Made by a program: the position numbers and the translations under genes
The notes under the pieces: model-generated
Databases searched by the model: none
What the model was told of the DNA's origin: nothing
What the model saw: only the letters and a program-made list of their open reading frames with translations
Source: a virus
Reading direction: 5' to 3' (one strand)
IMG/VR virus record: IMGVR_UViG_3300023104_000106
Span: 1 to 40,371 of that record
DNA: 40,371 bases
Part shown: piece after piece, positions 659-30,028 of the stretch
Numbering within the stretch: the first letter of the stretch is position 1
Layout of the letters: each line of letters opens with the position of its first letter

Positions 659-2623
659 ATGGAGGTGTTAATTGATAAAGTTAGAATAGCAAATTACAGG
701 GGAATTCAAGAGATTGAAATTGATTTATCGCCTACTACATTATTAGTTGGTGCAAATAATGCAGGCAAGACTTCTTTTCTTAAAGCATTGCACTTAGCTT
801 TGGGAGCAGACAGAAGAAGTATTTCAAAAGATGATTTTCATGATGATGGCTCTGGCAATAGTGGAGATTCTAAAGATATTTTAATTGATATACGAATAAT
901 ACCTTTTGATTTTGAAAATGATAAAAGAAAACAATCATTTGATGATAAATGGGTAGAAAAAGTATTTGGGCCTCTAATAAAAAATGATAATGATGATCGA
1001 GAATTTGTTTGTTTTCGAACAAGAGGATTTTATGATATTTTAAAAGGTTATTCATTTGAGCAGTTAGAACTGCAGAATTGGGATGTTTTTGAAACAATTG
1101 AGGCAGATAAAGTAGTTAAAACATGGAAAGATACGCCTGTAAGAAATAAATTTTCTAAAATTGATGCCATACCATTGTTTTTTATTGATGCTCAGAGAGA
1201 TATTTTATCAGATTTAAAAGATAAATCGTCTTATCTTGGAAAATTAACGGAAAGATTAGAAATTAATGATGCTGAAATTAAAATTATTGAAGGAAAGCTA
1301 AATAAAATTAACTCCGATATTGTTGATGAAAGCCCAATTTTAAATCATTTAAAAACTACATTACAAGAGTTAGGAAGAACTGTCAATACCACAGGTACTG
1401 GTGTTGAAATTTCACCAATTAATAAAAAAATTAGAGATATAGGTAGAAATTTAAATATTAATTTCAGAGATACTGATAAAGAAAGTTTACCACTAGAGTA
1501 TCATGGGATGGGAACAAGGAGTTGGGCTTCAGTACTTACTTTAAGTGCATTTATTTCATGGAATGAAAATACTAAAAATAAAAATATTAAAGATCCATTC
1601 TTTCCAATAATTGCACTAGAGGAGCCAGAATCGCATCTGCATCCAAATGCACAAAGACATTTGTTTAAACAGTTGGATGATATTAAAGGACAAAAAATAG
1701 TAAGTAGTCACTCACCATTTATTGCTGCACAGTGTAATTTAACAGATTTAAGACATTTTTATAAAGATGAAAATGGTTTAAAAGTAGGTGCTATAAAATT
1801 AAGTGATTCAGATGAATTACATATAAATTCTCTTCTTGAGGAAATTGAAAATGATAAAGATAATCAAGAGCTAAAAAAACAAAATTATCAGCGAATTGGG
1901 ATATTAAGAAAAGAAAAAAAGGGAAAAATAAATTCTGAAGAAGCTAGAAAAATAAGAAGGGAAGTGATGAACACCAGAGGAGAATTACTTTTTGCTAAAG
2001 CAATTATTTTATTTGAGGGAGAAACTGAAGAACAATCGTTGCCCATATTTTCTGAGAGTTATTTTGCAAGTTATCCGTTTGAATCAGGTTTGAATTTTAT
2101 AGCTGTTGGTGGGAAGGATAATTATACTCCCTTTTTATCTTTAGCTAAGTTTTTAAATATTCCTTGGTTTATTTTTAGTGATGCAGACCATAATACGGTT
2201 GGTGAAGTACAGAATCAAATTAAGCAGGTTTTTGAAGATTTAGATTTTAGTAAAAAGCTTATTGATTTAGGAAATGGTAATGATTTTGAAAGTTATTTAA
2301 TTCAGGAGGGGTATTCTAATAGTTTGATAAAGTCAATAAATGATGTCGAAAAGAAAAATTATTTTCCAGATGAATTTATTGATGAATTTAATGATCAGAA
2401 AGGTAAAGGTGGGGTTATTAGAAATTACAGGGAAGACGCAGATGGAGGTATTAGCCGTGCACTATTAGATTGTCTAAGAGGAAATAAAACAAAATATCCA
2501 ACTAAAATAGCTGAAAATATTAATAGTTTAGGGAAAAATAATGCTCCGAAAATGATTGAGAAATTGTTTGATTGCATTAATAGAGAGTTGAAAATATTAA
2601 AACAAATAGAAAATGAAGGTTAG
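659..2623 (+). CDS. gajA: OLD-family ATP-dependent endonuclease (GajA-like)
   Basis: The N-terminal half is an ABC-type ATPase. Walker A is GANNAGKTS at residues 31-39, the Walker B region LEEPESHLHP lies near 320, and the SSHSPF H-loop is near 350. The C-terminal half is a TOPRIM nuclease: LFEGETEEQ near 452, the metal-binding FSDAD near 508, and a following DFESYL. This is the class 2 OLD architecture, which pairs with a UvrD-like helicase in the Gabija defence system. GajA nicks or cuts specific DNA when nucleotide levels fall during infection. The protein has 654 residues, longer than the about 580 of Bacillus GajA. All key residues are visible. The helicase gene begins inside its last codons, so the two are translationally coupled. 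The nuclease/helicase pairing is seen; anti-phage activity is inferred. Confidence 0.86.
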   Translation: MEVLIDKVRIANYRGIQEIEIDLSPTTLLVGANNAGKTSFLKALHLALGADRRSISKDDFHDDGSGNSGDSKDILIDIRIIPFDFENDKRKQSFDDKWVEKVFGPLIKNDNDDREFVCFRTRGFYDILKGYSFEQLELQNWDVFETIEADKVVKTWKDTPVRNKFSKIDAIPLFFIDAQRDILSDLKDKSSYLGKLTERLEINDAEIKIIEGKLNKINSDIVDESPILNHLKTTLQELGRTVNTTGTGVEISPINKKIRDIGRNLNINFRDTDKESLPLEYHGMGTRSWASVLTLSAFISWNENTKNKNIKDPFFPIIALEEPESHLHPNAQRHLFKQLDDIKGQKIVSSHSPFIAAQCNLTDLRHFYKDENGLKVGAIKLSDSDELHINSLLEEIENDKDNQELKKQNYQRIGILRKEKKGKINSEEARKIRREVMNTRGELLFAKAIILFEGETEEQSLPIFSESYFASYPFESGLNFIAVGGKDNYTPFLSLAKFLNIPWFIFSDADHNTVGEVQNQIKQVFEDLDFSKKLIDLGNGNDFESYLIQEGYSNSLIKSINDVEKKNYFPDEFIDEFNDQKGKGGVIRNYREDADGGISRALLDCLRGNKTKYPTKIAENINSLGKNNAPKMIEKLFDCINRELKILKQIENEG

Positions 2624-4508
2624 TTTATCAGATCAGCAAAAGAAAATAACTGAACATCGAGATGGTGCTTTATTGGTATTGGCGGGAGCTGGTAGTGGCA
2701 AAACTAGAGTTCTAATAGAAAGAATAAAAAAACTTTTAAATGAAGGGACATATCATGTTTTAGCGTTAACTTTTACAAACAAAGCTGCTGAAGAGATGAA
2801 ATATAGACTTGAAGATGTTATTGATATTAAAGAGCGCTCATTTATAGGTACTATTCATAGTTTTTGTTTAGAAATAATTAGTAATCAAGGATATTCAATT
2901 GGTCTAACTGAGATGCCACATTTTTTTGATAAAGAAGATGATAGAAAAGAAGTGCTAATTGAAGTATTTGTAAAAAATATTCAATTAAAAGAACATTATT
3001 TAGCTCTTGACGAAAAAAGCAAGAGAAATTTTATTTATGAAGTTTTAGATTATATTAGTTTAAAAAAGAAAAGCCTTATTGAGCCAATATCGGACAGTAA
3101 TGAACCTTTAGAATATATCTATTGGGAATATCAAGAATCATTAAAGCAACAGAACGCTATTGATTTTGATGATGTTATTTTTTTAGCATATCAGATATTC
3201 GTGAATAGACCATCTATTGCTAATATATATAGAAGATTGTATAAGTTTATTTCTATTGATGAAGCTCAAGATTTAAATTTTGCGCAATATGAATTCATAA
3301 AAGCTTTATGTGGAGAAGAGCATAAAAATTTACTGATGGTTGGAGATTTAAATCAATCATTATTTCATTTTAATGGTTCTGATATTAAATATATGAATTC
3401 ATTATTTATAAGCGATTTTGGAGCTAAAACTATTAGATTAAATACCAATTATCGCTCTTCAAAGGCAGTTTTAGAAATAGCCAATAAAATAAAGGAAAAT
3501 TCAGTTTCGATAGATGAGAATACTCCGAAGGGTATTTTTGAAATAAAGGAATTTAACAATGTGGAGGAAGAGTCGATTTGGGTTATTGATAAAATAGAAG
3601 AATTTTTAAAACAAAAAAATTATGATGATATTGAGGGGGAGATAACATTAGATAACATTGCAATTTTAGCAAGAAATAAATATCTGTTTCAAGGTATTGA
3701 AAAAGAGTTAGATATCAGAAAATCTCACGGTAAAAAATTAGATTACTTTTATAAAAAAGGTTCTGATGTGACAGATTTCGGAAGTGAATTGATCATTTTA
3801 TTTGATTTAGGACTAAGTATCCTAACAAATTCACTTGACTTAATACATTTTGCCAAAATTCAAAAAATAATTGGAATTGAGGAAATTCAATTATTAGATA
3901 ATGAAAGAGGTATTTTAAATTTGAAGAAAATAAGAAGTTATATAATAGAACAGACTGCTAATGAATATTATGGATTTCTAATCAATGCTTGGGAACTTAT
4001 TGAAGAAAACATTAATAATTTTTCCTTAGCATTACAGAACCTCCAAACGAATGTTATAGATAAATATAAAAATTCAACAGAAGAAGCCTTAAATGAATTA
4101 GATAAGATTTTATTTGATATTATGTCTTTTCGTGAACTTTGGAAAATTTATTCAAGAAATACAAAAGTAGAGTTGAAATCTTTGCAACATTTTAAAACTC
4201 AAATAGCATTAGGGGTAACTAATATTAGTAATAATCAAAATGGAATTACTTTAGGGACAGTTCATTCTGTGAAAGGATTAGAATATACCATTGTATTTGT
4301 AATTGGTCTGACTGAAGGTGCTTTTCCTGATTTTAGAGCTGTCCAAAAAGGAGGTAATGAGTTTAAATCTGAAGAAAATGGATTCTATGTTGCTGTAACT
4401 AGAGCTGAAAGGTTTCTTTTCTTAACTTATCCCAAAAATAGAATGACTCAATATGGTAATAGAACCCAAAAGGTCTCAAGTTTTATTGAAAAAATTACAG
4501 AAAATTAA
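2613..4508 (+). CDS. gajB: UvrD/Rep-family SF1A helicase (GajB-like)
   Basis: All superfamily 1A helicase motifs are present in order: Walker A GAGSGKT at residues 25-31, TFTNKAAEEM, GTIHSF, Walker B IDEAQD near 215-220, the GDLNQSLFHFNGSD motif III region, NYRSS, GTVHSVKGLE near 548 and VAVTRAERF near 593. At 631 residues it is longer than Bacillus GajB (about 494). The start ATG overlaps the GajA-like gene by 11 bp in another frame, a strong sign of a two-gene complex. In Gabija, GajB is thought to sense DNA ends or ssDNA and help activate GajA. A plain UvrD repair helicase is less likely because of the overlap with an OLD nuclease. Confidence 0.86.
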   Translation: MKVSLSDQQKKITEHRDGALLVLAGAGSGKTRVLIERIKKLLNEGTYHVLALTFTNKAAEEMKYRLEDVIDIKERSFIGTIHSFCLEIISNQGYSIGLTEMPHFFDKEDDRKEVLIEVFVKNIQLKEHYLALDEKSKRNFIYEVLDYISLKKKSLIEPISDSNEPLEYIYWEYQESLKQQNAIDFDDVIFLAYQIFVNRPSIANIYRRLYKFISIDEAQDLNFAQYEFIKALCGEEHKNLLMVGDLNQSLFHFNGSDIKYMNSLFISDFGAKTIRLNTNYRSSKAVLEIANKIKENSVSIDENTPKGIFEIKEFNNVEEESIWVIDKIEEFLKQKNYDDIEGEITLDNIAILARNKYLFQGIEKELDIRKSHGKKLDYFYKKGSDVTDFGSELIILFDLGLSILTNSLDLIHFAKIQKIIGIEEIQLLDNERGILNLKKIRSYIIEQTANEYYGFLINAWELIEENINNFSLALQNLQTNVIDKYKNSTEEALNELDKILFDIMSFRELWKIYSRNTKVELKSLQHFKTQIALGVTNISNNQNGITLGTVHSVKGLEYTIVFVIGLTEGAFPDFRAVQKGGNEFKSEENGFYVAVTRAERFLFLTYPKNRMTQYGNRTQKVSSFIEKITEN

Positions 4509-4642: not shown

Positions 4643-5497
4643 ATGGAAACTGTAAAAGATTTTTTTCAAAGTATTTTTGATAATTATAGAGAAAGAATTA
4701 AAAGTCCCTTCATTGGTTCATTTATAATCTCATACTGTATTTTTAATTGGCGGACTTTTGCTGTTTTATTTTATTCAGATTGGCCAATACATTGCAGAAT
4801 AGAATTTATTAATGAGAATTATTGTAATACAGGAAATATTTTAATCCCTTTGGCAATTTCGTTTATCTATATTTTAATCTTGCCTTATTTTAACCTTATT
4901 TGTGATAGTATTTTAAAAAAGTATAATGCTATTGTTATTGATAAAAAGAATAAGTACAAAATAGATTCTTTAATACAAAAGAAAGATGAAGCAATAAAGT
5001 TGAGAGAAATTGCCGATGCGCAGGCAGGTACCAGTGAAATTGTAGAGCTTAATGTGAAAATTAAAAAACTAAATGATGAAATCAGTGAATTAAATACTAG
5101 AAATCAAACTGATAATGAGCGTTGGCAAAATAGTATTTCCAATTTTAAAAATATTGAGGATAGTGATAAAAGTATCAAAACAGAGCTTCAAAAAGAAGTT
5201 TCTAAATTAGAAAAGGAAAATAAAAAATTAAATACAAATCTTAGTGAGCAAAGAAAAGAATTAGAGGAGAAGTTAATTCCCTCTTTTATTTATGAGATAT
5301 TAAATAAATTAACAACTAATGAAATAAACGATTTTATGCGATTTTATGAAAACCGTAAAGATGGTAGAGTTTTTTTTAATGAAAAATCTTATAAAAATTT
5401 ACTCGTGTTTGAAATGGTCAAAGATAATGATGGGATTATAGAATTAACCAATTTTGGAAGTATTCTTTATCATTATATAAAGCTGATTGGTTATTAA
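4643..5497 (+). CDS. Two-TM coiled-coil membrane protein beside the Gabija-like pair
   Basis: I do not recognise a named family. The 284 residues show an amphipathic start, two membrane segments (about 22-45 and 64-90) separated by a short loop with WPIHCRIE, a long charged coiled coil (about 105-225) with the motif ADAQAGTSE, and a C-terminal 60 residues of winged-helix character ending in a LTNFGSILYHYI segment. It follows the helicase gene after 134 bp and ends 70 bp before a terminator, so it may have its own transcript. Its first 61 residues match the prophage protein at 27425-28318 at 43 positions without gaps. A membrane sensor or effector in phage defence is an inference from its position. 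A separate cargo gene is the alternative. Confidence 0.75.
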   Translation: METVKDFFQSIFDNYRERIKSPFIGSFIISYCIFNWRTFAVLFYSDWPIHCRIEFINENYCNTGNILIPLAISFIYILILPYFNLICDSILKKYNAIVIDKKNKYKIDSLIQKKDEAIKLREIADAQAGTSEIVELNVKIKKLNDEISELNTRNQTDNERWQNSISNFKNIEDSDKSIKTELQKEVSKLEKENKKLNTNLSEQRKELEEKLIPSFIYEILNKLTTNEINDFMRFYENRKDGRVFFNEKSYKNLLVFEMVKDNDGIIELTNFGSILYHYIKLIGY

Positions 5498-5603: not shown

Positions 5604-5624
5604 GTGGAGTCGCCGGGAATCGAA
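5603..5624 (-). other. tmRNA (or tRNA-Ala) 3'-end remnant; probable prophage attL
   Basis: On the minus strand this reads TTCGATTCCCGGCGACTCCA plus CA. That is the T-loop, the 3' half of the T-stem, the acceptor strand CGACTCC and discriminator A of a tRNA-like end. Position 70 would be U, giving the G3-U70 pair of alanine acceptors, which fits tmRNA best. The match stops in the T-loop, where plus-strand CCC would be expected and AACTAC is found. No tRNA body lies to the right, so this is a displaced 3' fragment as left by integrases that use tRNA/tmRNA ends. The intact gene should lie beyond the other prophage end. Confidence 0.65.
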
Positions 5625-5728: not shown

Positions 5729-5989
5729 CTAAACTTCGCTAATTTCAATGCTTCCAGACATATTGAAGACTTTTTTATCAGTGCCAAAAATCCAATTTGC
5801 ATTGACATTATATTTTTGAATAATGTTTTCGATATGGGTTACTGTAAAATGATTGGTGCCTTTTCTTATTTTTGAGAGAGTTTGTGGAAGAAGCTGTATT
5901 TCTCTGCAAAAATCAGCATCACGGCTGGCCTTGTTCTGAAAGATCAGGACATCAATTAAGCGCAATATTCTTTTATCAGTTTTTGTCAC
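5729..5989 (-). CDS. XRE-like helix-turn-helix protein
   Basis: An 86-residue protein with a lambda-repressor-like fold: a helix-turn-helix around residues 25-50 (FCREIQLLPQTLSKIRKG), then NIIQKYNVNANWIFG, the usual C-terminal pattern of small Bacteroidota XRE proteins. It is the outermost gene of the element, on the minus strand, 10 bp from the lipoprotein gene and in the same direction as the S24 repressor. It could regulate the prophage end or an excision gene; this is inferred. Confidence 0.65.
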   Translation of the reverse strand: MTKTDKRILRLIDVLIFQNKASRDADFCREIQLLPQTLSKIRKGTNHFTVTHIENIIQKYNVNANWIFGTDKKVFNMSGSIEISEV

Positions 5990-19061: not shown

Positions 19062-19337
19062 GTGAAAACAATCTTCTTAAATATGGGAAATATCATCATC
19101 GATAAAATAGAAACCGAAAAAATAGTTAGATCTGTCTGGGTCGCAAAAACTACAATCTACACTCCAACTAAAACCGATATAGAAATGAAAGGAGAAAGCG
19201 AAATCAACGCTTACGAAAAGCTAATTGATTTTTTAAAATGCGAGCAAAAACCTAAAGAGGTAAAAACGCTGCCGAACGGAAACAAAATCTATCACTTTAA
19301 AAATCCAACTACAAATGATGAATCAAAAACCTTATAA
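19062..19337 (+). CDS. Small basic hypothetical protein
   Basis: GTG at 19062 gives 91 residues; an in-frame ATG at 19083 is a plausible later start. The protein alternates beta-like segments (NIIIDKIETEKIVRSVWVAKT) and ends KTLPNGNKIYHFKNP. Its end overlaps the fusion protein start by 23 bp, so it is part of this transcript. No recognised family; a partner of the downstream helicase-methyltransferase is possible. Confidence 0.5.
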   Translation: MKTIFLNMGNIIIDKIETEKIVRSVWVAKTTIYTPTKTDIEMKGESEINAYEKLIDFLKCEQKPKEVKTLPNGNKIYHFKNPTTNDESKTL

Positions 19338-21936
19338 GGAATTTTTAGAGGATAAGATTGTTGTAGCTGGGACTTTTGGGACTGAAATTGATAAATCCTT
19401 GATCAATCCAATAGCAAAGCCACATCAGAAAGATATTATTCATTGGGCCGTTGGAGGCGGACGTCGTGCTATATTCGCATCGTTCGGATTAGGAAAAACA
19501 TTGATGCAGCTTGAGATTGCCAGGTTAATTATAAAAATCACTGGAAAACCATTCTTAATATGTATGCCTTTAGGTGTAGTTGGGGAATTTAGAGACGATA
19601 ATGATCTTTTGGGCGCAGAATATCCATTAAAATATATTACGGATACTGATGAGGTGGGCAAATCTGAGCTTGCTATATATGTGACCAACTATGAGCGTGT
19701 TCGAAAAGGAGATATTGATCCTGACTTTTTCGGAGGCGTTTCGTTTGACGAAGCTAGTATTTTGAGAAATCTAAAAACTGACACCACAAACTACGTTCTG
19801 AAGCATTTCAGAAAAATAAAATATCGCTTTGTTGCTACTGCGACACCAACACCAAATGACTTTATAGAAATACTGAATTATGCAGATTATTTAGGAGTTA
19901 TTGATCGTGGTCATGCTTTGACAAGATTCTTTCAACGAGATTCTACAAAGGCGGGCCATCTTACGCTTTACGAAAGTAAAAAAGAGGAGTTTTGGAAATG
20001 GGTTTCTTCTTGGGCGGTATTTATCAATAAACCCTCTGATCTTGGTTACGATGATACTGGCTATAATCTTCCGAAATTAAATTTTCATCCTATTGAAATA
20101 CCGGATAATTATGAAGGTGAAATATTAGATGAGAATGGAAATCTTGTCATGTTCAAAAAACCAAGAAAAGGTTTGTCGGAAACTTCGAAAGAAAAAAGAG
20201 ATACGGTTTTGTTGAGGACAAATAGAGCTCTTGAAATTGTAAAAGAAAATGGTCTTGAAGATAACTGGCTTCTTTGGCACCACGTTGACAGAGAACGAGA
20301 TTGTATTCAAAAACTATTCAAAGGATTTGATCTGCAAACTATTACAGGAAGTCAGAAAAATACTGAAAAGGAACAAAAACTGATTTCATTCAAGCATGGA
20401 GAATATAAGATCCTGTCCACTAAACCAAAAATAGCAGGTTCTGGATGCAACTTTCAAAAGCATTGTCATAAGGCTGTTTTCGTTGGAATTGATTATAAAT
20501 TCAATGATTTTATTCAAGCAATACACCGAATTATGAGATTCTTGCAAGAGTTTGAAGTCGATGTCTGGGCAATTTTTACAGAAGCGGAAAGAGAAGTTTT
20601 TAAAGAGCTGATGCGAAAGTGGAAGCAGCACATTGAAATGGAAACTGAAATGATCAACCTGGTCCGGGAGTATGGACTTAACCAAGATAAAATTACAGCT
20701 GATATGAAAAGACAAATTTTTGAAAATAAAAGAAGTGCTGTCATTGGAAATGCAAAAGTTTTCAATGACGATACTGTTATTGTTCATGAGCAAATGGCAG
20801 ATGATTCTACGGATATGATTTTAACGTCAATTCCTTTTGGTGATCATTATGAATACTCAGATAATTATAATGATTTCGGTCATAATAATGGGAACAAAGA
20901 GTTCTTCAAACAGATGGATTATTTGACACCCAATTTGCTACGAACACTAAAGCCCGGCAAAATTGCTGCAATTCACGTTAAAGACAGGATCCGTTATTCA
21001 TATCAAAATGGAACTTCGTTTACTTCCATTGAAAGTTTTTCAAACGAAACGATAAGACATTTCACAAAAGCTTCAATTGGTGACAAAATTGAAATGTTAG
21101 AAGCATTAAAAAGTGAAGGAGTTGTTTTAACTGAAAAAATTGAATCCGAGCTTGCAGAATTAAAAGCTGATTATGAAAATAGATTTTATCATGTTGGAAC
21201 AATTACCGTAACAACGGATGTTGTTCGCGAAAATAATCAAACATATCGTTTAGGATGGTCTGAGCAATGCAAAGACGCTACTAAAATGGGCGTAGGATTG
21301 CCAGAATATGTTTTGCTTTTCAGAAAGCGACCAAGCGAAAGTAATAACGCCTATGCAGACGAACCCTGTGTTAAGACCAAAGATGAATATCCAGTTGATA
21401 ATTGGCAATTAGATGCTCATGCTTATTGGAAGTCATCAGGAAATCGGTTCATGAGTTATGAAGAATTAGCGGCTACAGATATGAAAGCGGTTTTTAACCG
21501 ATGGAAAGAGCATGATTCAAAAAATATCTATGATTTTCAAGAGCATTTAAAGGTTTGTCAGGATTTAGAAAAAGCCGGGAAATTAAGTAAAAAGTTTATG
21601 ACAATTCCACCTACATCACCAACAGATATGGTTTGGACTGATGTAAATCGAATGAACACCTTAAACGCTAATCAGGCAAACAGAAAAAAGGAAAAGCACA
21701 TTTGTCCACTTCAATTGGATATCATCGAAAGATTAATTAATCGATTTACAATGAAAGGTGATGTTGTTGATGATCCTTTCGGCGGTTTATTCTCCACAGC
21801 TTACAAAGCACTTGAAATGGAACGCAAAGCGATATCTGCAGAGCTTAATCCAAACTATTATGATGATGGTCTTTTTTACCTGAAATCTATCGAGTACAAA
21901 ATAAATGTTCCAACCTTATTTGATTTAGCAATATGA
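19315..21936 (+). CDS. SNF2-like helicase fused to DNA methyltransferase
   Basis: The 873-residue protein joins two enzymes. Residues 1-450 form an SNF2/SF2 motor: ASFGLGKTL (about 56-64), DEAS in VSFDEASILRN, TATPTPNDF, and a C-terminal lobe with QAIHRIMRF. Residues about 485-873 form an N4/N6-type DNA methyltransferase: motif IV-like LTSIPFGDHYEY near 500 and the SAM-binding DPFGGLFST near 820 with ISAELNPNYY. Phages use such fusions to modify their own DNA against restriction. The usual DPPY-type catalytic motif is replaced by SIPF, which I believe is normal for this phage group but could alter the target base. The next gene overlaps by 4 bp. Confidence 0.82.
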   Translation: MMNQKPYKEFLEDKIVVAGTFGTEIDKSLINPIAKPHQKDIIHWAVGGGRRAIFASFGLGKTLMQLEIARLIIKITGKPFLICMPLGVVGEFRDDNDLLGAEYPLKYITDTDEVGKSELAIYVTNYERVRKGDIDPDFFGGVSFDEASILRNLKTDTTNYVLKHFRKIKYRFVATATPTPNDFIEILNYADYLGVIDRGHALTRFFQRDSTKAGHLTLYESKKEEFWKWVSSWAVFINKPSDLGYDDTGYNLPKLNFHPIEIPDNYEGEILDENGNLVMFKKPRKGLSETSKEKRDTVLLRTNRALEIVKENGLEDNWLLWHHVDRERDCIQKLFKGFDLQTITGSQKNTEKEQKLISFKHGEYKILSTKPKIAGSGCNFQKHCHKAVFVGIDYKFNDFIQAIHRIMRFLQEFEVDVWAIFTEAEREVFKELMRKWKQHIEMETEMINLVREYGLNQDKITADMKRQIFENKRSAVIGNAKVFNDDTVIVHEQMADDSTDMILTSIPFGDHYEYSDNYNDFGHNNGNKEFFKQMDYLTPNLLRTLKPGKIAAIHVKDRIRYSYQNGTSFTSIESFSNETIRHFTKASIGDKIEMLEALKSEGVVLTEKIESELAELKADYENRFYHVGTITVTTDVVRENNQTYRLGWSEQCKDATKMGVGLPEYVLLFRKRPSESNNAYADEPCVKTKDEYPVDNWQLDAHAYWKSSGNRFMSYEELAATDMKAVFNRWKEHDSKNIYDFQEHLKVCQDLEKAGKLSKKFMTIPPTSPTDMVWTDVNRMNTLNANQANRKKEKHICPLQLDIIERLINRFTMKGDVVDDPFGGLFSTAYKALEMERKAISAELNPNYYDDGLFYLKSIEYKINVPTLFDLAI

Positions 21937-25998: not shown

Positions 25999-26265
25999 AT
26001 GGCATCACACGTAAATGATAAAAATCACATAAAAATTAAGTATGATAACTTTCAAAGTGCACTATTACAATGTAACAAGCATAATGGAAAAGTTGAAAAC
26101 TTAGGAAAAAGAAAGATGGTTCCTTATCTGTGCAAGATCTGTAATAAAGTGCATACCGGCCACCATAGCAAAAAAATAATAACTTTTAAAGTTCAGGAAT
26201 CAGCACTGAAGAAAATAAATGATGTTTTAAGCATCAGTATCCTAATTAAAAAAATAGATTTATGA
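25999..26265 (+). CDS. Small zinc-finger-like protein
   Basis: The 88 residues carry QCNKHNG, then YLCKICNKVHTGHHSKK, which fits a Cys2-His2-type metal site, with a basic surround. Start is 6 bp after the barrel gene, and the stop overlaps the ASCH gene by 4 bp. It probably binds nucleic acid; the target is unknown. Confidence 0.55.
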   Translation: MASHVNDKNHIKIKYDNFQSALLQCNKHNGKVENLGKRKMVPYLCKICNKVHTGHHSKKIITFKVQESALKKINDVLSISILIKKIDL

Positions 26266-26702
26266 AAGCACTATCAGTAAAGAATCCTTGGGGGTACTTG
26301 ATTGTACTCGGAATCAAAGACATTGAAAATCGATCCTGGCGGACTAATTTCAGAGGGACATGCTATATTCATGCATCCGGACAAATTTACCCGTTTTTTA
26401 AAGGAAATAATTTAGCTTTCCCAGTTGACCAATGGGCGGATATAAACAAAGTAATTGATCTTAAAATTCCAGGTGAAAAAGAAAAGTTTTTTATAACCTC
26501 AGCAATTATTGGCGAGGCAGAAATAATTGACTGCGTTCAGAATCATCCGTCAATTTGGGCTGAAAAAGCAACTCTCGGAGAAAAACCAATTTGGAACTGG
26601 GTTCTTGCAAATCCGGTCCTTTATGATAAACCGATTTTAGACGTCAAAGGTAAACTTGGGTTTTGGGAGGTGGATTATAGTATATTTAGAGATTTACTTT
26701 AA
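26262..26702 (+). CDS. ASCH-domain protein
   Basis: The 146 residues show the ASCH fold pattern: MKALSVKNPWGYLIVLGIKD, then IENRSWRTNFRG, CYIHASGQ, and a C-terminal IIGEAEIIDC, GKLGFWEVD. ASCH is a PUA-related beta-barrel that binds RNA or modified nucleosides; some members are hydrolases or ribonucleases. Phages carry it often beside replication genes, with unclear role. It overlaps the convergent membrane gene by 9 bp at the 3' end. Confidence 0.8.
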   Translation: MKALSVKNPWGYLIVLGIKDIENRSWRTNFRGTCYIHASGQIYPFFKGNNLAFPVDQWADINKVIDLKIPGEKEKFFITSAIIGEAEIIDCVQNHPSIWAEKATLGEKPIWNWVLANPVLYDKPILDVKGKLGFWEVDYSIFRDLL

Positions 26703-27365
26703 TTCTTTTTTTAGATTATCAATAAGAATAAAATAAAATTGATTCATCAGTATAAGTTCGTCTTCACTTTCAACAATAATGTGCGTATCTAATCTTCGAG
26801 CTACTATTGCATCGCAAAAAACATTCAACTTATTTGCGTTGATTAACAATTTATTAAAATCAGGAGAGTTCAAATTATATTCAAATAAATGTCCATATCT
26901 GCGTTCGAAAGTCAGTATGTAATGATAAAAGTCCCTAAATACTAATGTTACATTGCGAAATGATTGCAAGTTTTCTAACCTTACATCATTTGGTATGTTT
27001 GTATTTATAATTATCGCAGTAGATCTAACTATTTCGCCACTAATACTAGTTATTTCAGGCAGGAACGAAGTTAGTTTGTCATAGCAATCAAGTTTTCGCA
27101 CTAGCAAATTTATTTTTTTATTTTCTTCATTTGATTGCTTACTAACTGTATTCGTTAGAAGACCTAAAATAATTAAGCTGCTTAATGATAGAATTGTGTT
27201 GATAGTTCCACCGATGTAATCGCCAAAAGATGCCCAATCACTTAAATCATTTGAAATTGTTTTGTTTCCAAAATGATTCATAAATATTGCAATTGGAACA
27301 AGCATTAAGATAAAAGAGAAAATAGAAATGGATATGAAAGCGTGATTTTTTAGAAATTTAATCAT
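26694..27365 (-). CDS. AbiC-like two-TM membrane protein
   Basis: The 223 residues start with a membrane segment (about 8-30: AFISISIFSFILMLVPIAIF), then DWASFGDYIGGTINTILSLS leading into a second segment (to about 75), then a charged cytoplasmic helical domain. The W-x2-FGDYxGG-x-N motif between the membrane spans is that of putative phage abortive infection proteins (AbiC-like). It is the second gene of a minus-strand pair, 59 bp after the 2TM coiled-coil gene, against the direction of the flanking phage genes. Superinfection exclusion or abortive infection by the prophage is likely but inferred. Confidence 0.6.
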   Translation of the reverse strand: MIKFLKNHAFISISIFSFILMLVPIAIFMNHFGNKTISNDLSDWASFGDYIGGTINTILSLSSLIILGLLTNTVSKQSNEENKKINLLVRKLDCYDKLTSFLPEITSISGEIVRSTAIIINTNIPNDVRLENLQSFRNVTLVFRDFYHYILTFERRYGHLFEYNLNSPDFNKLLINANKLNVFCDAIVARRLDTHIIVESEDELILMNQFYFILIDNLKKELK

Positions 27366-27424
27366 TTAAAGTAGTTTTTAGTCTATTTATCCAACGCAAG
27401 TGAGTATTGTATTTCAATATTTAA

Positions 27425-28318
27425 TTATGAAATATTATACTTAGTTAAGTCATTTTTAAGTAACGCAATTACAAAGTGTCCCACTAAAGTTATTTCTACT
27501 TTATTATTCGTGACTTTGACTAGTCCGAGATCTAAAAATCGATTTAAGAAAAGTTCCTCTATATGTGATGTATGATAAGTTTTGGTTTCTTGTCCGTTTC
27601 CAAATAGAGCTATAAATGCCGTACGTTCTAATGCTGTCGTTTTTTTTAGGGTAGTTAATCCAACATCTACTAGATCGGGATCTAGCAGGTTTTTATAATC
27701 CTCTTCATCTTTTTGTGCTTTATTATGTAGAATCTCAGTAATTCTACTTTTAAGCGAATTATTCTCTTTTGATAAATTGTCAATTGACTTATTAAGATCA
27801 TTTTCTTTGTCAAGCGAGACAGAAAAGCGATCTGACCATCGTTGTTCGTCTAGTTTGTTTTGGTCAGTAAGACCCTTTAGTTCTTCCTGTAAACTTTCTA
27901 TTTTTGATTGTAAAGTAATTATTTGACTTGTTCCAGCTTTAGCATCTGCGACTTGTCTTTCTAATTCTGCAAAATCTTTTTGTTGATGTAAGTCATCAGT
28001 TCGTTTAGCTTTTTTTTCCTCCGCTCTTTTTGTAGAATACTTACCAAGCAGATAATCTATGACTAGATTTATATATGGTAGTGCAATTATATAAAATAAC
28101 GCAATTCCGATTGGAATTAAAAAGTTTGACCAACTACAATAATTACCTTCAATCCATTCTATTCGACAATGAACCGGCCATTCTGAATAAAATAGAATTG
28201 CAAATACTCTCCAATTAAAAATTAAGAAAGAAATTATAAATGAACCAACTAAGGGACTTTTTATTCTCTCAGTCGAGCTGTCATAGATATTTTGAAAAAA
28301 TTCCTTAATTGTTTCCAT
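27425..28318 (-). CDS. 2TM coiled-coil protein, homologue of the Gabija neighbour
   Basis: A 297-residue protein with the same plan as the product of 4643-5497: first 61 residues match at 43 positions (ERIKSP, GSFIIS, IFNWR, WPVHCRIE), two membrane segments (about 22-45 and 64-90), a coiled coil with ADAKAGTSQ and ERW/QRW-like marks, and a diverged C-terminal domain with a DLGLVKVTNNKVEIT segment of winged-helix character. It has its own consensus promoter 17 bp upstream and leads the AbiC-like gene. The family is unknown to me; a conflict role at the inner membrane is inferred from both contexts. Confidence 0.75.
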   Translation of the reverse strand: METIKEFFQNIYDSSTERIKSPLVGSFIISFLIFNWRVFAILFYSEWPVHCRIEWIEGNYCSWSNFLIPIGIALFYIIALPYINLVIDYLLGKYSTKRAEEKKAKRTDDLHQQKDFAELERQVADAKAGTSQIITLQSKIESLQEELKGLTDQNKLDEQRWSDRFSVSLDKENDLNKSIDNLSKENNSLKSRITEILHNKAQKDEEDYKNLLDPDLVDVGLTTLKKTTALERTAFIALFGNGQETKTYHTSHIEELFLNRFLDLGLVKVTNNKVEITLVGHFVIALLKNDLTKYNIS

Positions 28319-28334
28319 TCATTTTTAATTTTGG

Positions 28335-28365
28335 CAAACATAGGATTTAAATTGAAGTTTCCAAA
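28335..28365 (-). promoter_or_regulatory. Promoter of the membrane-protein pair
   Basis: On the minus strand, TTTG (28362-28365) and TATGTTTG (28335-28342) are separated by 19 bp, a full match to the Bacteroidota consensus. Transcription would start about 10 bases before the ATG, giving a very short leader. This suggests expression in the lysogen independent of the lytic promoters. Confidence 0.75.
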
Positions 28366-28392
28366 TAACTTATAATAGTGTGAGGCTAAAAC

Positions 28393-28440
28393 AGGTATTT
28401 ATACCTAGTAGAATTGTCAATTAATCGTTTAGATTAATTG
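28393..28440. repeat. Two palindromes upstream of the membrane-protein promoter
   Basis: AGGTAT-TT-ATACCT (28393-28406) and CAATTAATC-GTTTA-GATTAATTG (28418-28440) are perfect inverted repeats just behind the promoter. They could be regulator sites for the membrane-protein pair or for rightward transcription. The rest of the gene-free stretch 28319-28978 is AT-rich, with a second possible rightward -7 box TATATTTG near 28528. Confidence 0.4.
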
Positions 28441-28747
28441 TGCTGTAACTACGGAAAGAACCTGGTAAAAAATCGTACTTGCATACATTTGTTCGTATTT
28501 TTGTATTTTAAATTGTCTGCAATATTATATTTGGCAAAGCTTTAATAATTTATTATATTGTAAAATAGGTGCGTACTTTTCTTACGAATCAATTTTGAAA
28601 TATTGATAAGTATTTTTAAATCGATTGTAAAATTTAGAAGAAATCAGTGTTAATTGCGTATTAATACGTGGTTTATATAAAGTTTTTAGTTGTATATTTA
28701 CTCTACAATTACATGTTTACAATTATTTTTTATTTTACGGAACAATA

Positions 28748-28798
28748 TTTGCTAGGTATAGAAGATAAGTGTATCTTTGCCCTCCCTTTTTAGGGAGG
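28748..28798 (+). promoter_or_regulatory. Strong promoter with 5' leader hairpin
   Basis: TTTG (28748-28751), 20 bp, TATCTTTG (28772-28779) is a perfect consensus. Immediately after it, CCTCCC-TTTTTA-GGGAGG (28781-28798) would form a hairpin at or near the 5' end of the RNA, which usually protects a transcript or controls its first steps. The leader to the small gene at 28979 is about 190 bases. Confidence 0.75.
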
Positions 28799-28978
28799 TT
28801 ATTTAGAATCGTTATAAATTGATATTTAACATTGATTTTTGATCTTGTTTATCAAATTCACATTGTTATATTTGTCAAAAAATATTTTCAAATGTATTAT
28901 TTTTAGAGAGTAATTATTTTAGGATTTGAACCAATTATCTAAGATTTTTATATCTACAATTTTTTAAAACCCACTATT

Positions 28979-29137
28979 ATGGAAAAGAAGTTTAACAGTA
29001 AAGGAATTGAATTTGTTCCTAAAAACGATGTTTCGGAAGAAGCTAAGTTGAAGTTGAACAAATTAATTGAAGGAAAAACAGAACGCTTAAACAAGCTTGT
29101 AGCAGACTATAAAGCTGGTAGATTAGTATCACAATAG
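28979..29137 (+). CDS. 52-residue basic protein in its own transcription unit
   Basis: ATG 28979 to TAG 29137 gives MEKKFNSKGIEFVPKNDVSE and a second half that is helical and basic (KLNKLIEGKTERLNKLVADY). The unit has a consensus promoter, a leader hairpin and a dedicated terminator 27 bp after the stop. A tiny gene with such full signals is likely strongly expressed. The sequence suggests a small helical nucleic-acid or protein binder; no family recognised. Confidence 0.6.
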   Translation: MEKKFNSKGIEFVPKNDVSEEAKLKLNKLIEGKTERLNKLVADYKAGRLVSQ

Positions 29138-29163
29138 GAATTCTATGTTAAGATTTACAACTC

Positions 29164-29192
29164 ATGAGAGCTTAAATAGCTCTCATTTTTTT
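29164..29192 (+). terminator. Terminator of the 52-residue gene
   Basis: ATGAGAGCT (29164-29172) and AGCTCTCAT (29178-29186) are perfect arms around TAAAT, followed by a run of seven T. An in-frame ATG at 29145 for the next gene lies before this hairpin and is therefore unlikely. Confidence 0.9.
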
Positions 29193-29219
29193 ATAACAAC
29201 ATTACAAGATAATATCTGT

Positions 29220-29621
29220 ATGTTGAATTTTACAAAATTAGATCAGGAGGAAATGTTTTTTCAACATGATTATCTGCAAGAAAATGTTTTTGAATTAACT
29301 GTGGCAAAGGCTACTGCAAATAAAGAAAATTGTGGTAAGGGACTAGCGCCGACAATTAAAAGTATTTTCGATACTTTTTTAGCAGAGCGGGAAGAAACGG
29401 TTGTATATGTATCTATGGAGGAGAATTCTTCAAAATACCACTTGGTAACTAGATATATTAACAATGAAGTTGATCCAAATTATAAAATGTTATTATTTAA
29501 AGCGGACAACAAAGCTTTCTTTTTCTTTTTTAATGAGCACAAAACTAGCACCGTCGAAGTAATTGTTGGCTTAACAAGATATTTTAAAAATGAATATGGT
29601 ATTAGTTTTGTAAATAACTAA
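29220..29621 (+). CDS. DUF6169-like hypothetical protein
   Basis: The ATG at 29220 is chosen because the earlier in-frame ATG (29145) precedes a terminator. The product has 133 residues with the pattern GKGLAPTIKSIFDTFLAERE, VVYVSMEE, YHLVTRYINN and KMLLFKADNKAFFFFFNEH. This is reminiscent of the DUF6169 family of Bacteroidota mobile elements, which sits after a small helical gene like the one here. The match is by eye. Function is unknown; a toxin-antitoxin-like pair with the 52-residue gene is conceivable but unsupported. Confidence 0.5.
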   Translation: MLNFTKLDQEEMFFQHDYLQENVFELTVAKATANKENCGKGLAPTIKSIFDTFLAEREETVVYVSMEENSSKYHLVTRYINNEVDPNYKMLLFKADNKAFFFFFNEHKTSTVEVIVGLTRYFKNEYGISFVNN

Positions 29622-29644
29622 TATGTTTTTTTATATGAAGCAGA

Positions 29645-29671
29645 AACCCACTATTATTAGTGGGTTTTTTT
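29645..29671 (+). terminator. Terminator after the DUF6169-like gene
   Basis: AACCCACTA (29645-29653) and TAGTGGGTT (29658-29666) form perfect arms around TTAT, followed by T residues to 29671. Confidence 0.9.
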
Positions 29672-29695
29672 ATGAATATTTATTAAATTTGGAAT

Positions 29696-30028
29696 ATGCA
29701 AAATCACACACTCATATTATCAACAGCAAAAGTCGCAATTCCGGAAGGAGTTACAATCGACTTTATCACTAGTTTGATTAATCGTGGATTAACCGGGATA
29801 GAATATTTTGGACCGGAAATCGATAACCAAGAAGATTTTATCGAACCCGATATGAAACTGGCCAGTGAAGAGATTTCATATTTCGAATTCTTTTTTGATA
29901 CTGATGAACCAATCGAATATGATCTACTTTCAGAAACTGACGTAGATGGATTCGTATTGGACTTAATAAAAAAATCCGCTAACATTGATCTGCGAGCGGA
30001 TGAAAAGGATATAATTGTATACCTATAA
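29696..30028 (+). CDS. Acidic hypothetical protein
   Basis: A 110-residue, strongly acidic protein (GPEIDNQEDFIEPDMKLASE, FFFDTDEPIEYDLLSETDVD) that begins with a soluble mixed segment. Acidic small phage proteins often mimic DNA to block nucleases or restriction, but nothing here proves that. It ends 4 bp from a convergent gene. Confidence 0.5.
   Translation: MQNHTLILSTAKVAIPEGVTIDFITSLINRGLTGIEYFGPEIDNQEDFIEPDMKLASEEISYFEFFFDTDEPIEYDLLSETDVDGFVLDLIKKSANIDLRADEKDIIVYL

Follow-up and report, generated by a model that had tools for sequence, protein, structure and literature searches.

Why would a temperate phage and the bacterial DNA next to it both carry a gene for the same kind of membrane protein? 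The window, which is the whole 40,371-nucleotide stretch analysed here, is an IMG/VR virus record with a backbone common to more than 20 other phage records, and family matches indicate that the phage host genus is probably Flavobacterium. One gene lies in the prophage (27425..28318, minus strand) and encodes P0001, a protein of 297 aa; the other lies on the host side (4643..5497, plus strand) and encodes P0002, a protein of 284 aa. Both proteins belong to a family that has not been described so far, and its members are predicted to be rod-like and anchored in the membrane.

Probable host DNA at the left end of the window

The window's first 400 bases cover the final part of a DUF3347 gene, and the two genes of a Gabija system follow on the plus strand, GajA at 659..2623 (PADLOC PDLC00067, E 1.4e-213) and GajB at 2613..4508 (PDLC00132, E 3.5e-206). 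The sequence TGGAGTCGCCGGGAATCGAA, which looks like a tRNA or tmRNA 3' end, is found once in the window, at 5605..5624 (plus strand), and sequence comparison points to it as the probable attL core, with host DNA to the left and prophage to the right. A near-identical core is present in the related phage G410, where it lies between the integrase and an HTH-like gene, and in G408, where it is located at the end of the prophage. At the phage end of the window is a gene for a small HTH-like protein (5729..5989, minus strand; HTH read from the sequence, no Pfam match), the counterpart of which adjoins the integrase across a short intergenic region in relatives. Given the position of the core and this arrangement, the left 5.6 kb, comprising the DUF3347 gene end, GajA, GajB and P0002, is most likely host DNA, in agreement with an earlier note on this DNA that had placed the gene at 4643..5497 outside the prophage. 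A complete tRNA or tmRNA gene should be present at the missing right end of the window.

P0002 starts 134 bases past the end of GajB on the same strand, which would fit a third, accessory gene of the Gabija system here. We consider this very improbable: Gabija consists of two genes, P0002 is distinct from both GajA and GajB despite its place directly behind the pair, and among 88 family loci there is no recurrent linkage to GajA and GajB, no other GajA, and a single distant GajB-like UvrD helicase in the locus of one member (L116:2441-4354), 29% identical to the GajB of the window. The suggestion that one copy serves a defence locus thus holds for the position of P0002 behind Gabija, but the link does not recur.

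Two diverged copies with one predicted architecture

Full alignment of P0001 and P0002 gave 115 of 295 identical residues (39%, E = 1e-67), which excludes chance resemblance. The similarities that had first drawn attention to the pair were reproduced exactly: 43 of the 61 N-terminal residues are identical without gaps, and the ADAxAGTS motif is found at residue 124 in P0001 and P0002 (ADAKAGTS / ADAQAGTS). Identity drops to 18% over the last 85 residues.

AlphaFold2 models (mean pLDDT 82 for P0001 and 77.7 for P0002) contain an amphipathic helix at residues ~3-19, a helix at 22-44, and a short loop helix; in P0001, these are followed by a helix that starts in the membrane at residue 64 and extends to ~202, and by a winged helix at 206-288. 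Together with hydropathy, which points to two membrane segments in most of the members examined, the models predict a family architecture of a two-helix membrane hairpin (~22-86), a rod of ~140 residues, and a C-terminal winged helix. P0002 has the same predicted architecture with a diverged end, which is modelled at low confidence (blocks of pLDDT 50-70). In the members checked, the stretch between the membrane segments is negative and the stretch past the second segment is usually positive, which suggests that the C-terminus is cytoplasmic.

The C-terminal part of P0001 has the order helix-helix-strand-helix-strand-strand and structural matches to winged helices. The VIA-align matches listed include a plant NLR winged helix, Rio2, RosR, MarR, and TubR, with Z up to 8.9 over ~78 residues; they span only P0001 residues ~213-295, say little on the hairpin and rod, and have scores within the range of a common fold. 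The modelled domain resembles generic winged helices. Foldseek searches against viral models and the PDB returned nothing at E <= 0.001, and no catalytic domain was recognised. The claim that the C-terminal domains of the two copies differ is therefore only partly right: the sequences have diverged, but both models end in a winged-helix-like manner, and the ends are best described as a single predicted fold in two divergent versions. For the last 85 residues, the pI is 4.7-6.5 in most of the members examined (8.0 in L069), a mild argument against plain DNA binding.

Promoter-like sites around P0001 occur at chance level. A Bacteroidota-like -7 box, TATGTTTG, was spotted by eye and without statistics 5' of the gene (28335-28342, minus strand), and an Rfam search gave zero matches.

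A family found in phages, plasmids, and chromosomes

P0001 and P0002 match five PHROG families (13369, 4780, 35327, 24478, and 22645), all of unknown function. The profile matches to 13369 and 4780 are 1.1e-20 and 6.1e-18 for P0001, and 8.6e-20 and 3.0e-19 for P0002. These PHROGs represent the same family; the matches cover the membrane part and rod, most of them end short of the C-terminal end, and the function field is empty. Pfam, NCBIfam, and PADLOC contained nothing informative for either protein, and their weak matches lay mostly over the rod (best PADLOC values of 0.0019 for P0002 and 0.07 for P0001, all across the coiled rod). A PDB sequence search yielded coiled-coil noise, and literature searches found no paper on this family. 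As far as the curated libraries searched are concerned, the earlier description of a candidate undescribed system is upheld.

Relatives were retrieved with alignment-derived patterns, as a single-protein scan of viral contigs found none. They occur in Klebsiella phages, in plasmids of Klebsiella, Vibrio, Erwinia, and Pigmentibacter, in many IMG/VR records, and in Myroides, Acinetobacter, and Flavobacterium. Of 399 Flavobacterium genomes, 54 contain a match (a few, among the weakest, are probably coiled-coil noise), as do 12 of 296 Bacteroidota genomes. The Klebsiella-type gene is present in only 1 of 5,426 E. coli genomes, which makes E. coli unusable as a population sample. Members are mostly solitary genes and are located in prophages, plasmids, and chromosomes.

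Constant platform and variable end

A conserved membrane part with a variable end, first noticed in the two window copies, holds family-wide and is extreme in Klebsiella-type prophages; the C-termini of homologues are not uniformly conserved. Pairs of Flavobacterium members are mostly 40-69% identical over the first 130 residues and 13-29% over the last 85, and most of their ends keep a winged-helix-like pattern finishing in (I/L)T..G. One pair (L070 and L071) is 55% identical in the front, 79% in the middle, and 49% at the end; since the middle is closer than the front, front and end move separately.

The Klebsiella-type members were compared with that of phage BUCT711, a Uetakevirus (L003). 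Residues 1-110 are 89-100% identical among L003, L045-L048, L050, L051, L054, and L058, but the tails of three of these proteins (L045, L051, and L058) are only 7-26% identical to the others and to each other. Compared with L003, L051 and L058 are 94-97% identical over residues 1-110, 89-91% over 111-165, and 13-19% in the tail; in the DNA, homology extends to about codon 155-163, is interrupted by a gap of ~300 bases, and returns at the stop codon with 91-95% identity. Judged by these sequences, this is a clean tail swap. Other branches have other ends: the L055-L057 proteins are 437-464 residues long, and the L053 and L074 ends lack the winged-helix pattern. The constant platform with a variable end is thus borne out at sequence level, most clearly outside the window (1-40,371), and repeated exchange of the far end is as expected of a part that would serve recognition in phage-versus-phage conflict.

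An exchange cassette around the prophage copy

P0001 lies in a cassette of ~3 kb (26667..29693) where the sequence departs from that of the close relative G414, between flanks with DNA identities of 93% and 91%. The corresponding cassette of G414 contains a family member of its own, which is 44% identical to P0001. Phage comparison identified a gene common to related phages on either side, a left one with a weak ASCH-domain match (26262..26702, plus strand) and a right one at 29696..30028 (plus strand). The cassette also encodes a predicted membrane protein of 223 aa (26694..27365, minus strand; no Pfam match), in the same orientation as P0001, 59 bases downstream of it, and 37% identical to a protein in the matching cassette of G414. 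Relatives of this protein share a phage region with a family member, and members are found in the same phage neighbourhood in G415, G004, G005, and G007, and, judged by coordinates, in G701. The motif SFGDYIGGTINT, which we take to resemble the putAbiC motif, occurs in the predicted membrane proteins at 26694-27365 of the window, at L069:5818-6531, and in L150 near 6559; proteins of this type have no Pfam putAbiC match.

These phages bear on the reading that the gene belongs to the phage's own lysogeny or lysis control, in which case the hairpin would serve the membrane or timing programme of the phage itself and the end would pair with a phage-specific partner. The membrane hairpin, the winged-helix fold, and frequent carriage by prophages would suit such a role, but a family member is carried by just 4 of 22 backbone relatives (many of the 22 being fragments), so that the gene is accessory and dispensable for the phage cycle. 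The exchange cassette is moreover away from the repressor region, and numerous copies sit outside recognisable prophages. We therefore regard a control function as unlikely.

Elsewhere in the phage, the gene at 19315-21936 fuses a helicase-like part with an N6/N4 DNA methylase part, and is replaced or strongly diverged in some related phages.

Sharing between phages and hosts, and gene neighbours

Phage and chromosomal copies are intermingled in a tree built from residues 1-130, and its well-supported branches force at least 12 changes between the labels phage and chromosome, which were partly assigned by reading neighbours. For example, a member at an AbiH locus (L065_8001) is the sister of a phage member (L069_8001; support 100/93). 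Together with the many prophages that carry copies, this partly supports the interpretation given in the earlier note.

The exchange between the two sides could also be read as counter-defence, in which the phage copy would be an escape factor that inhibits a membrane defence of the host and the host copy a relic or decoy. Copies on both sides, with the host copy adjoining Gabija, are compatible with this, but chromosomal copies are numerous, intact, and spread beyond one defence system, and we find it distinctly improbable.

Some members have defence genes as neighbours. A member pair in L065 is accompanied by AbiH (E 2.4e-32) and PDC-M65B, and other loci contain restriction and DUF262 genes (L005), a TIR-like protein (L144), a PIN_8 protein (L146), or a Schlafen AlbA_2 protein (L154). 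The neighbours show no general enrichment in defence genes, a point that counts against the earlier note: PADLOC model matches, which were counted as matches and not as proteins, number 56 for 148 immediate neighbours and 72 for 127 proteins about five to seven genes away. Many chromosomal members have ordinary neighbours. The housekeeping neighbours that the earlier note held would speak against its proposal are thus present for some members, including four in a treS/glgB cluster, while other members lie beside defence genes. In these four Flavobacterium genomes (L143, L146, L149, and L158), one branch of the family occupies a conserved position between treS/maltokinase-like and glgB-like genes, a glycogen cluster that was named by eye from sequence. 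The presence of the PIN_8 gene at the L146 locus makes it possible that this place is an insertion hotspot.

The treS/glgB members, the ordinary genes beside several others, and the absence of general defence enrichment are what one would expect of a cargo gene that serves the host in a way unconnected with phages (e.g., in envelope stress or membrane organisation) and whose end diverges fast without conflict. Recognition under conflict accounts better than drift for the sharp tail replacement between homologous flanks and for the repeated exchange at one site of the phage. The sporadic distribution also speaks against a cargo gene, which we consider a rather unlikely explanation.

A small HTH gene adjoins members at eight loci (e.g., L066:7581-7997). 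It is multi-copy, with up to eight copies per genome in some Flavobacterium, so its link to members is non-specific, and it may mark mobile islands.

Comparison with known systems

The closest functional analogues are PdpSau and AbiP, membrane-anchored anti-phage proteins, of which PdpSau lets phage DNA enter and halts its replication (PMC10127798). PdpSau is a prophage accessory gene and lactococcal AbiP is a defence gene, and both have an N-terminal anchor and a cytoplasmic domain, as predicted for P0001. We propose a similar working principle by analogy and claim neither membership nor a relation in sequence. PdpSau has a single N-terminal membrane helix, and its soluble part is OB-like; P0001 and P0002 have a predicted two-helix hairpin. 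A long rod or winged helix, both predicted for P0001 and P0002, is not described for PdpSau. The structure matches listed for P0001 residues 213-295 are winged helices.

SieB (PF14163) is, like P0001, prophage-borne, and it is anchored by two membrane helices at the N-terminus, with its end in the cytoplasm, but it is ~200 aa long and lacks the long rod. Homology to SieB was not supported: hhalign comparisons with Flavobacterium SieB proteins gave probabilities of 5.5% for the whole protein and 5.8% for the C-terminal part, and PF14163 is absent from the Pfam matches of P0001 and P0002 up to E = 1.

A possible role in phage exclusion

We hypothesise a defence role for the family. Specifically, P0001 and P0002 may be membrane-tethered superinfection-exclusion or abortive-infection proteins with an exchangeable recognition end, a proposal that we judge to have about an even chance of being correct. 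The tail swap, the cassette exchange, the exchange between phage and host, the defence context at some loci, and the sporadic distribution argue for an anti-phage role; the lack of defence enrichment, the treS/glgB members, the ordinary neighbours, and the lack of a recognised catalytic domain argue against it. In the proposed mechanism, the protein would be tethered to the inner membrane with the hairpin loop in the periplasm and the rod and end in the cytoplasm, where the rod would oligomerise. The prophage copy would be expressed in the lysogen, and its variable end would recognise something made by an incoming phage; as the end is mostly near-neutral to acidic, a protein is a likelier target than DNA. 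The hairpin would then act in one of two ways, either by stopping DNA from entering (superinfection exclusion) or by perturbing the membrane (abortive infection). P0001 would thereby shield the lysogen from competing phages, and P0002 would be the host's own or a captured version.

More tentatively, and with less confidence than for the two window proteins, we suggest that the family forms a class of membrane-tethered immunity proteins, widespread in prophages and hosts and so far undescribed. In this view, exchangeable ends on a constant membrane-and-rod platform would determine which phages are excluded. If the ends do set the target range, nature would have supplied a modular set with which to study how lysogens distinguish competing phages, and Klebsiella-type prophages already provide near-identical proteins that differ in the end alone. 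The five PHROG families would then also gain a function, and prophages and host defence loci would be seen to draw on one gene pool.

Some members are paired, in tandem or divergently (L065, L040/L134, L053, L123, and L130). The side-by-side members have different ends, and they may act as a mixed pair.
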